A DNA stretch of 56,825 nt from Dehalococcoidales bacterium (GTDB taxonomy: Bacteria > Chloroflexota > Dehalococcoidia > Dehalococcoidales > UBA5760): NCBI GenBank assembly GCA_028716225.1, contig JAQUQE010000010.1, positions 1 to 56,825 on the forward strand, in the 5' to 3' direction. Under the pieces are notes generated by a model. It made no database searches. It had not been told where the DNA came from and saw only the letters and a list, made by a program, of their open reading frames with translations. This document shows positions 47,412-50,768 of the stretch, piece by piece. Made by a program: the position numbers and the translations under genes. How positions within the stretch are numbered: the stretch's first letter is position 1; every line of letters starts with the position of its first letter.

Positions 47412-48995
47412 CTATAACCGAAACACCTTCGACGGCGTGCCGGACCACGAGCGTCTCTGGAACATGGTCATCTCATAAGGGACCAGTCTCTCTCGAAACA
47501 CCCTGTCCTGTAATTCGAGAACATAGTTATAGTCTATCTCGCAATAGTACCGGTACCAGTCCCGTATCATGCACGCGACCTGGAAAAGGTAATCTTCGTT
47601 ACCAAAATCCTTATATTTCTCCTTAAGGTCAGGATGCTCCCGCAGCATTCTGTTCGCCTTGGAGCCGGCAAAAGGCATCAAGCTTCCCCACTCGAACCGG
47701 TCAAAGTTATCAAATTCGGTAAGTCTTTTTAGAAAATCGATCGTCCTCTCTAAGCTTTCTTTACTCTCACCCTGTACTCCGACTACGACACCGGCTATCA
47801 CGCCAATCCTGTATTTCTGTAACAAATCCATAGCTCTTATATTATCCTCGAGGGTTGCCCTCTTGTTCATACTCTCCAACATCTTAGGGTCACCCGATTC
47901 CATACCGACAAAGACGCTGACACAGCCAGAATCGGCAAGCAGCCGGGCAGTCTCCTCATCAATGTCTTCGGCATCTACATAGTTGGTGTAATGTATGTTC
48001 AGTCCTTTCGGTTTTGCCGCGCAGAAGGCCTTGAACCACTCTTTATCCCCGACAAAGTTATCCGACGGGTCCCAGATAAAATCTACCCGGTATTTCTCGA
48101 CCAGGGATGAAATCTCGCCCCAGACAAGCTCAGGGTTCCTCAATCGTAAATCATAATAAGGAATCGAACAGAACACACAACCACCCTCTTCCTGCGAACG
48201 CCAGAGGCATCCCTTCTGAGAATAGATGTTCATCGGTCTCCTGAAGGGCTCACAGATGGGATACTCAGGATCCTTGCTGTTTTTGAAATATGTCTCCATG
48301 TCCAGAAGATCCCTGTCCGGAACGGGAAGCTCGTCAAGACAGGGCAGTTTTATCGGGTTTGCCTTGATCTCACCATTGGCGCGATAAACAAGGTTCTCTA
48401 TCGAATTCAATGGCTCAGCGGCAACATACTTCGATAAGGCAATCTCTCCATCATATCGAACGACAGCATCCACGAAGTCGTAGTATCTTAGAATCTCCCC
48501 GGCCAGCGGAGTCGCCGCAGCCCCTCCCAGGACCACTCTCGCCCCTTTCCCCTTGGCAAGTTTAGCCAGTTCAATGGCATAGTCATAACCCCCCGCAGTT
48601 GTTGATATTCCGACCAGATCCGCGTCAATCCTGTTCTTCACTGCCTCCAGAGTCAGGGCATTGTTCCCGTCCAGAATCTCGACATCGATACCGGGATTAT
48701 TCTTTCTGATATAGGTCCCCACGGACAAAATACCCAGAGGCTGGGGCCATCTGGCAAACTTAGCGATATAGCCATCCGGTCTCCCGGGCTGGTGCAACCG
48801 GGTCAGGCGCTGGAGCACAGCGGCAAAAAGGTCCCTTGACACGGCTATCTCAGCCATCCGGAGGATAAGCTGCCGGCTACGGCGCACGATAGGATGAGGC
48901 CATCCGGCAAATTTACTTATATATGTATCCGGCCTTCTTGGCGGAGGCAGCACCAGCTGGACCTTTTCAATTTTCCTTGCCGGCCCCATTTCCAT
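47412..48995 (-). CDS. B12-binding radical SAM protein
   Basis: This 527-aa protein has a B12-binding-like domain (about 60-200; LVGISTTAGGYDYAIELAK, VVLGGAAATPLAG) followed by a radical SAM domain. The cluster cysteines appear as GCLWRSQEEGGCVFC, that is C-x9-C-x2-C rather than C-x3-C-x2-C. Downstream DSGCVSVFVGMESG matches the radical SAM barrel. The N-terminus contains a duplicated RPDxYIxKFAxWPxP motif at about 21-35 and 72-86. No substrate can be assigned. It faces mscL convergently. Confidence 0.85.
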   Translation of the reverse strand: MEMGPARKIEKVQLVLPPPRRPDTYISKFAGWPHPIVRRSRQLILRMAEIAVSRDLFAAVLQRLTRLHQPGRPDGYIAKFARWPQPLGILSVGTYIRKNNPGIDVEILDGNNALTLEAVKNRIDADLVGISTTAGGYDYAIELAKLAKGKGARVVLGGAAATPLAGEILRYYDFVDAVVRYDGEIALSKYVAAEPLNSIENLVYRANGEIKANPIKLPCLDELPVPDRDLLDMETYFKNSKDPEYPICEPFRRPMNIYSQKGCLWRSQEEGGCVFCSIPYYDLRLRNPELVWGEISSLVEKYRVDFIWDPSDNFVGDKEWFKAFCAAKPKGLNIHYTNYVDAEDIDEETARLLADSGCVSVFVGMESGDPKMLESMNKRATLEDNIRAMDLLQKYRIGVIAGVVVGVQGESKESLERTIDFLKRLTEFDNFDRFEWGSLMPFAGSKANRMLREHPDLKEKYKDFGNEDYLFQVACMIRDWYRYYCEIDYNYVLELQDRVFRERLVPYEMTMFQRRSWSGTPSKVFRL

Positions 48996-49246
48996 ATCTC
49001 CTCGACCCGGGATCTCCCGATCTACTCGCTACGGGCCGATTCTCATCCATCGACAGTCCCGCCCTAATAATACGCTAATTGCACCGGCAATAAAATCGTA
49101 CCGGAGCACCACCTGCCAATATGAACGATTCTTCACCGTAAGCTTTTCCAAATTTACCGTAGCGTGATGTATAATAAGCCAAAGCATAATTGCATCAGTA
49201 ATCTATGATGAAGATGATTTACAACCCAAATCTCCACGGAGGCAGA

Positions 49247-50104
49247 ATGACCATTATCTGCTTCGTTTCCGGTTCAGGAACAAACTACCAGCAGATTGCT
49301 CGATCGAACCCCGATCAAGACTACATTGTATTCACGAACAGACCCGGTTGTGGAGGTGTGGCAAAAGCCAGAGCGAATAAACACACCACCATCGAACTAA
49401 GCCACTTGCCTTACCTAAGGCCGGCAATAAAGAAATATGGCTCGATGAGCATTCCCCGAAACTGTCCGGAGAGGATAAAGTACGAACAGGATGTGTGGCG
49501 CCTGATAGAAGAAAAAATCGAAAAAGCGCCCGACCTGATTTGCCTGGCGGGCTACGACCAATGGCTAACCGATTGGACGGTAGACAGGTACTACCCGAAA
49601 ATTTTGAATATTCATCCCGGGGATACCACCAGAGGTTACTCGGGCTTGCACTGGATACCCACCGCCAAAGCCATACTATCCGGCGATAAAGAGATAAGAG
49701 CAACCTTATTCCTTGTCGATAGAGGAGAAGACACAGGGGCAGTATTGGCTCAATCCAAACCACTTGCAATAATCCCGACACTCAGAATGCTGGAATCAGA
49801 GGGAATAAATGGGCTGCTCAAAGGGTTCAACGAAGTGACCGGTTTTGCTATTAAGCACGCCATAACCGGTTATGATGATTTTGAGAAGACGGCTGATAAA
49901 AAGCAGAAAACAATCATGAAACAGTTATGTGATCATCTTCAGGGCGCGCTTAAGATAGCAGGAGACTGGGAGGTCTATCCGTTTGTGATACATACCCTGA
50001 TAGCACACGGGCGCGTAGAGATAGAAGATAGAAAAGTTTATATTGACGGCAGGCCTATGCCGGATTATGGATACCGGATGAAAAAACACCTACCCGAATA
50101 CTGA
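49247..50104 (+). CDS. PurN-like formyltransferase
   Basis: This 285-aa protein has a formyltransferase-like fold: N-terminal FVSGSGTNYQQIA (the GART-type SGxGTN loop), then DLICLAGYDQWLT, LNIHPGD (Asn and His of the catalytic triad), and LFLVDRGEDTGAVLAQS (Asp). These residues match phosphoribosylglycinamide formyltransferase, but the loop HPSLLP is replaced by HPGDTTRGYSGLHW and there is a C-terminal extension of about 90 residues. ATG at 49247 has GGAGGCAG upstream and is preferred over 49205. A substrate other than GAR is possible. Confidence 0.75.
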   Translation: MTIICFVSGSGTNYQQIARSNPDQDYIVFTNRPGCGGVAKARANKHTTIELSHLPYLRPAIKKYGSMSIPRNCPERIKYEQDVWRLIEEKIEKAPDLICLAGYDQWLTDWTVDRYYPKILNIHPGDTTRGYSGLHWIPTAKAILSGDKEIRATLFLVDRGEDTGAVLAQSKPLAIIPTLRMLESEGINGLLKGFNEVTGFAIKHAITGYDDFEKTADKKQKTIMKQLCDHLQGALKIAGDWEVYPFVIHTLIAHGRVEIEDRKVYIDGRPMPDYGYRMKKHLPEY

Positions 50105-50168
50105 ACGTGACACTATTAAGGAAGCTATGATAGAGTTGGCTTATGATCATTACTACACGAGGATATAT

Positions 50169-50197
50169 TTGAGTCTATCCTAAAAAAAAGATATAAT
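50169..50197 (+). promoter_or_regulatory. Promoter of the 28-aa micro-gene
   Basis: TTGAGT (50169-50174) and a perfect TATAAT (50192-50197) are separated by exactly 17 bases. The transcription start would be near 50204, leaving about 34 bases before the micro-gene ATG. Confidence 0.6.
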
Positions 50198-50237
50198 ACT
50201 ATGATGCTTATCTTACAGAAAAGGAGGACATGTTCCC

Positions 50238-50324
50238 ATGGGACACAAGGGTCCGGCCAAGGTTGGCTCAGGAAGCTCTTCCAAACCAGGACAGGCCAAG
50301 CCGTCTAAGCCAGAGAAGAAATAG
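50238..50324 (+). CDS. 28-aa lysine/glycine/proline-rich micro-protein
   Basis: This ORF (MGHKGPAKVGSGSSSKPGQA then KPSKPEKK) has an AAGGAGG SD 10 bases upstream, a consensus promoter 40 bases further up, and an intrinsic terminator beginning 22 bases after its stop, so it is a complete stand-alone transcription unit. The peptide is strongly basic and low-complexity, predicted unstructured. An alternative ATG at 50230 in another frame gives a 68-codon ORF running through the terminator and is rejected. No known family. A small regulatory RNA with an incidental ORF is the main alternative. Confidence 0.55.
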   Translation: MGHKGPAKVGSGSSSKPGQAKPSKPEKK

Positions 50325-50346
50325 TTGGGTTCATCGATATTCCGTC

Positions 50347-50390
50347 TTTAGGGGAGCCGTGAGACATATCACGAGTCCCCTAAATTTTTT
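50347..50390 (+). terminator. Intrinsic terminator of the micro-gene
   Basis: A 9-bp stem (TTTAGGGGA with TCCCCTAAA) encloses a second 5-bp stem (CGTGA with TCACG, 6-base loop) and is followed by six T residues. This is a textbook rho-independent terminator. Confidence 0.85.
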
Positions 50391-50506: not shown

Positions 50507-50692
50507 CTAGCGATCAATAAATAATTTACCGGCTTTAGCCATATTTTCTTCGCTATATTCCACAATATCGATAGTGACTACCTCTGGTTGAACCTTGAAG
50601 TGCTTGACCACCGCTTCGGTGATATCCTTTACCAGAGCCCTTTTCTGCTCGATAGTCCGCACCCCTTTTACTTTTACGGTCACTAATGGCAT
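50507..50692 (-). CDS. 4-oxalocrotonate tautomerase-family protein
   Basis: This 61-aa protein begins MPLVTVKVKG after choosing ATG at 50692, exposing Pro1 as the catalytic base of the tautomerase superfamily; an in-frame start at 50716 would bury it. RTIEQKRALVKDITEAVVKHF and VTIDIVEYSEENMAKAGKL match the family. AAGGGGG precedes the start. The physiological substrate is unknown. Confidence 0.85.
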   Translation of the reverse strand: MPLVTVKVKGVRTIEQKRALVKDITEAVVKHFKVQPEVVTIDIVEYSEENMAKAGKLFIDR

Positions 50693-50768
50693 TCTTAACC
50701 CCCTTCTTAACCCCATGATGAATTCACAAAAACAAAAGCCAAGGTAAAGCGGCTGGATTTGAATAGAA

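Follow-up and report, generated by a model that had tools for sequence, protein, structure and literature searches.

The window, a stretch of 56,825 nucleotides from a Dehalococcoidales bacterium, contains a compact transcription unit that encodes a 28-amino-acid basic peptide and that is, judging from its conservation in relatives, almost certainly a translated gene. The encoded peptide, whose relatives in uncultured Dehalococcoidales are preserved by selection, represents a new micro-protein family and may well function as a small polycation that binds nucleic acids or other polyanions. The combined reading, in which a stand-alone monocistronic gene specifies a small, basic and probably disordered micro-peptide acting as a polyanion-binding polycation, seems to us about evenly balanced between right and wrong. 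The features of the unit and its flanks are listed below; G007 is a second genome of the window's genus.

49205–50104, + strand: formyl transferase-like gene (Pfam PF00551), upstream, outside the unit; pS 0.229 and pN 0.073 versus G007
50169–50197, + strand: sigma-70-type promoter TTGAGT-17-TATAAT (sequence reading); 39/40 bases of 50161–50200 same in G007
50169–50174, + strand: −35 element TTGAGT (sequence reading)
50192–50197, + strand: −10 element TATAAT, after a 17-base spacer from the −35 element (sequence reading)
50221–50227, + strand: Shine-Dalgarno (SD) sequence AAGGAGG, 10 bases before the ATG; 22/22 bases of 50216–50237 same in G007
50238–50324, + strand: micro-ORF, 28 aa, MGHKGPAKVGSGSSSKPGQAKPSKPEKK; 86/87 bases same in G007; peptide-level selection across lineages
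50347–50390, + strand: intrinsic terminator with a 9-pair outer stem, a 5-pair inner stem and six Ts; −22.6 kcal/mol
50507–50716, − strand: tautomerase-like gene (Pfam PF01361), downstream, convergent, outside the unit; pS 0.104 and pN 0.017 versus G007

All parts that the original prediction had named (a promoter with 17-base spacing, AAGGAGG, a 28-codon ORF and a hairpin with six Ts) are present within 50161–50390. The promoter hexamers score 10/12 against the consensus, and a leader of about 34 bases, counted from an inferred start site near 50204 (predicted transcript, about 185 nt), precedes the ORF, which runs from the ATG at 50238 to a TAG ending at 50324. The outer stem of the terminator is formed by 50347–50355 and 50376–50384, followed by the Ts at 50385–50390, and the element is a separate hairpin in the predicted fold of the transcript; a simple terminator scan did not list it because of its internal loop and long span. 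An alternative 68-aa frame beginning with an ATG at 50230 was rejected, as it starts 2 bases from the SD sequence, continues past the terminator and, in G007, is cut to 32 aa by a stop codon. The unit lies between the formyl transferase-like gene (+) and the convergent tautomerase-like gene (−), and it is therefore not the leader peptide or attenuator of a downstream operon, the next gene (50507–50716) being on the opposite strand. Further upstream, a radical SAM/B12-binding protein (47412–48995, − strand) carries in its translated N-terminus two near-copies of R-P-D-x-Y-I-x-K-F-A-x-W-P-x-P, and the pair resembles a repeated element that was either inserted into the beginning of the gene or joined to it.

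Used as a DNA query, the 241-base unit matched only the window's own genome (G000) and G007 among 61 genomes, which included the family member G043. The G007 copy occupies the same genomic place. In addition to the identities listed above, 66/68 bases are shared from the stop codon to the terminator, whereas the intergenic stretches on either side share 43/56 and 88/114; between promoter and leader, a 15-base segment is variable (11/15 same). The two ORFs differ by one nonsynonymous and no synonymous change (0 of 19.7 sites), while pS of the flanking genes is 0.10–0.23. These identities imply constraint on almost all of the transcript at this distance; taken alone, that could mean either an RNA or a peptide. 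The remaining 7 of the nine genomes of this genus, one of them 98% complete, gave no member, so the gene is patchy. No empty site could be shown within the genus, since the tautomerase flank is well matched in G007 only; the third match, in G002, reaches 40% identity. As a separate observation, the G000 assembly measures 2.64 Mb versus 0.8–1.3 Mb for the other eight genomes of its genus, which reflects either a real difference or a mixed bin.

Relatives of the peptide were found in a second family of the order. A profile of six peptides matched 27 of the 156 Dehalococcoidales genomes at E ≤ 1, and reading of the loci left eight real members, namely two of the nine genomes of the window's genus (G000 and G007) and all six genomes of genus g36; the narrower pattern MGHKxPAK occurs in 5/156. 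Every member starts with MGHKxPA(K/R), ends in a lysine tail and stands behind an exact TATAAT, located 40–60 bases before the ATG, and an SD sequence, with a hairpin terminator following (−13.6 to −22.6 kcal/mol; 8/8). G043, for example, encodes MGHKAPAKAAGGKPAAAPAKPAKKK within its own promoter/SD/terminator unit. In three g36 loci (L022, L041 and L028), a small extra hairpin (e.g., CAGGGGAATTGTATCCCTG in L041) seems by eye to lie between stop codon and terminator; it was not seen in the window unit.

A scan of 84,980 species genomes for an SD sequence followed by MGHKxPA returned 24 stretches, seven of which are stand-alone micro-ORFs, all from Dehalococcoidales/Dehalococcoidia and, by our own matching, the same seven relatives as in the order survey; the other 17 are not stand-alone family members. 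Among one-mismatch matches (six loci read), all except G151 were rejected, including L021, which has a stop after MGHK in the matched letters. The other 19 genomes matched by the profile gave weak matches only, and of their loci, 17 were read and G024 alone was kept (see below); the reading left aside five loci in frames of 71–552 aa and one match without a locus. A further search yielded, besides G024, only two chance frames. One profile (A3) did not recover two known members, the window and G043, at E ≤ 0.05, and absence elsewhere is thus soft evidence. Most genomes are incomplete and split into many contigs and profiles lose low-complexity peptides, so this distribution is a lower bound, and the finding that the micro-peptide family occurs so far only in Dehalococcoidales refers to its MGHK form in the collections searched. 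The claim that the peptide resembles no known family held up: Pfam, NCBIfam and PHROGs (three peptides each) and PDB (one g36 peptide) gave no match. Plasmid, phage and distant blastn searches likewise returned none, and the literature listings searched showed nothing on these peptides.

The family peptides are small soluble polycations with a net charge of +6 to +7 in 18–28 residues and share one layout, with a fixed MGHKxPA(K/R) N-terminus, an elastic middle of P/A/G/S and K and a fixed lysine tail. The window peptide is lysine- and proline-rich, richer in Gly/Ser than its relatives, and probably extended because of its proline content. It has no hydrophobic core or stretch; a type I toxin peptide, which would need a hydrophobic membrane-spanning stretch, was rejected. 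The exact TATAAT, the strong SD sequence, the strong terminator and the codons frozen within the genus suggest that the micro-peptide would be made in quantity. As a free-standing polycation it could coat or bridge DNA, RNA or polyphosphate, working like the KPAA-repeat tails of AlgP/PhaF minus their globular domain, and the fixed MGHK end might make a specific contact. That polyanion binding is the main job of the peptide is an assignment we put just short of an even call. Richness in lysine, proline and alanine is an unspecific predictor of nucleic-acid binding, and the constancy of the MGHK start suggests a peptide with a specific partner more than it does a plain polycation.

The leading rival is a clade-specific ribosome-associated micro-protein that would sit in an rRNA pocket by means of its fixed N-terminus. 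The size, charge, strong expression signals and invariant N-terminus of the family would fit this, and bL37, with 24 aa and described from actinobacteria (PMC5876184), offers a precedent. However, the P/A/G/S-rich middle varies freely in length across the 18–28 aa peptides, the gene is patchy even inside one genus (2/9), and no ribosomal gene was recognized beside it, which together make a ribosomal role rather unlikely. It is unlikely, too, that the peptide is a hydrophilin-like, stress-protecting disordered chain without a particular partner: the window peptide, Gly/Ser/Lys/Pro-rich and without a hydrophobic core, would fit the definition of a hydrophilin, but most relatives are instead rich in Ala and Pro with little Gly, and a generic protectant would not be expected to keep MGHK as its start.

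The original prediction had also left room for a small RNA with an ORF and had proposed to compare peptide and RNA conservation in relatives. This comparison favors the peptide. Between the window family and the g36 family the DNA of the unit has no recognizable similarity (the 241-base query found none in G043), so that across families the peptide is kept and the transcript sequence is not. In each of four comparisons with g36 variants, the similarity of the window peptide was reached by 0/5000 shuffles. The window and g36 members differ by pS 0.89–1.06 and pN 0.20–0.27, and in codons 2–8 of the five distinct variants all third positions vary (7/7), compared with 2/14 first and second positions (Fisher p = 3e-4). 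This pattern indicates that purifying selection acts at the peptide level across lineages, and the combination of nearly saturated synonymous sites and kept amino acids favors a peptide rather than a small RNA. Within g36, as between G000 and G007, synonymous sites are frozen: the micro-ORFs of G154 and G151 show 0 synonymous changes of 18.3 sites (pS of ftsZ, 0.435), and those of G152 and G154 show 1 of 18.3 (comparison value 0.338). We infer from this a codon or mRNA constraint on a strongly expressed gene. A regulatory or dual-function RNA to which the ORF is secondary could draw on the same within-genus conservation, which spans the whole transcript, synonymous sites included. It is nevertheless quite unlikely, given that only the peptide is recognizable across families, where synonymous sites are near saturation. 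In addition, the fold of the transcript is just a little more stable than those of shuffled sequences (z = −1.57), its largest stable stem is the terminator, and the window-wide Rfam search gave no match at the gathering score.

In five of the six g36 genomes (L098–L102), the micro-gene directly follows ftsA-ftsZ, recognized by eye and by sequence match, which could point to a division-machinery partner, i.e., a small peptide binding FtsZ. G148 (family f38), where a 33-aa KPG-rich ORF precedes an ftsZ copy by about 150 bases, would agree with this. Of the 156 genomes of the order, 147 have an ftsZ match, and 48 ftsZ neighborhoods (30 + 18 loci) were put through a micro-ORF filter (net charge ≥ +3, ≥ 12% Lys, ≥ 8% Pro, SD sequence and terminator). 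Only the five g36 neighborhoods passed; the G148 ORF is missed by the filter because of its SD distance. The window and G007 units are placed elsewhere, in the G148 case the SD distance is poor and the ftsZ match contains a TGA, and a single ancestral placement suffices to explain g36. In the sixth g36 genome, G155 (L128, 6427–8330), a 131-aa ORF, and not ftsZ, separates ftsA from the micro-gene downstream; the matched ftsZ of this genome lies on another contig. We therefore mostly rejected a functional link to ftsZ and consider an FtsZ-binding role very unlikely. The G148 ftsZ copy itself (L136, contig C38, 8463–9506; match G148:C38:80459–81505), with its one internal TGA, may be a paralogue in decay or the product of faulty assembly.

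A chance ORF within a chance promoter-terminator setting is extremely unlikely and in our view already refuted: 12/200 shuffled windows hold at least one unit passing a loose combined rule (promoter ≥ 9/12, AGGAGG, an ORF of 15–60 codons, a hairpin ≤ −9 kcal/mol and a T-run), but the gene is conserved in eight genomes with codon-phase periodicity (the p = 3e-4 given above for codons 2–8) and with selection on its amino acids. The same rule returns exactly one unit in the 56.8-kb window, that at 50169–50390, versus a mean of 0.06 in dinucleotide shuffles. The promoter hexamers by themselves are not significant and provide no evidence, with 9 promoter-like sites in 5 kb versus 6.9 (sd 2.6) in shuffles. 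The decisive evidence for the micro-gene is its conservation, not the chance test.

Similar micro-genes exist outside the MGHK family. A third family, f17, has stand-alone, lysine/proline/alanine-rich ORFs of 24–31 aa, such as MVDKPKPGTTPSKPAAAPAKPAVNPVKPKGK, in three genomes (G024, G074 and G075) out of the order's 156, with textbook TTGACA-17-TATAAT promoters (TACAAT in G024), AAAAGGAGGTG and strong terminators. Like the MGHK family, these are short stand-alone ORFs with PAKP units and a lysine tail, but they begin with MVDK or MADK and have different neighbors, namely archease/RtcB-like and ornithine cyclodeaminase-like genes (recognized by eye). The peptides of G074 and G075 are similar to the G153 variant from g36 (a similarity reached by 0/5000 shuffles each), whereas their similarity to the window peptide is near chance level (1243 and 507 of 5000). 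The f17 micro-genes thus look analogous or distantly related. Two further ORFs are leads. The doubtful one is the G148 ORF, which combines its poor SD distance with no good promoter; the search that turned it up also gave G067, rejected after locus reading, and left unread G008 (stop inside) and G049 (558-aa frame). The other, MATQTKPAAKPAATPAKPKKGCCC, comes from G178, which belongs to another order of the class; it is a KPA-rich 24-aa ORF with an SD sequence (L093, 1486–1560) that ends in KKGCCC and is perhaps metal-binding. L093 alone was micro-gene-like among eight loci of weak matches read, a set that left out L085, L087, L089, L096 and L097.

A broader picture, which we consider less likely than not, is that of an order-restricted, highly expressed, histone-tail-like free polycation or new ribosomal protein, with the analogues in f17, and possibly in f38 and another order of the class, hinting that this lineage repeatedly maintains tiny KP-rich organizers of nucleoid, RNA or polyphosphate. 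Annotation systematically misses micro-proteins of fewer than 30 residues; for this one, from a lineage of bacteria with small genomes and few cultured members, the sequence alone makes a case for translation and selection. Should it prove to be a free H1-like tail or a micro-protein of the ribosome, it would reveal what such disordered basic tails, otherwise part of larger proteins, can achieve by themselves. For metaproteomes, a short search key is MGHKxPAK preceded by TATAAT and an SD sequence.

Among known systems, one close comparison is with the KPAA tails of AlgP/PhaF, histone H1-like proteins of Pseudomonas. Both these tails and the MGHK family are built of lysine/proline/alanine units, are predicted to be disordered, are strongly positively charged and vary in repeat number between relatives. 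In contrast to AlgP/PhaF, the MGHK peptides are whole proteins of 18–28 aa with a fixed MGHK start and no globular domain, and in the window peptide Gly/Ser replaces much of the Ala. We file the window peptide under neither AlgP-type nor ribosomal micro-proteins. The former assignment fails because the helical N-terminal domain of AlgP/PhaF is absent, the window ORF running from its own start to its own stop in 28 codons, and because the peptide lacks KPAA repeats; KPAA or PAKP units do occur in some g36 variants. The ribosomal protein bL37 is basic. According to its description (PMC5876184), it has 24 aa, was found only via cryo-EM density and only in actinobacteria, and has a helical N-terminus, which sets it apart, by description, from the P/G-rich window peptide. 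The two are alike in being tiny, clade-restricted and easily missed by annotation.
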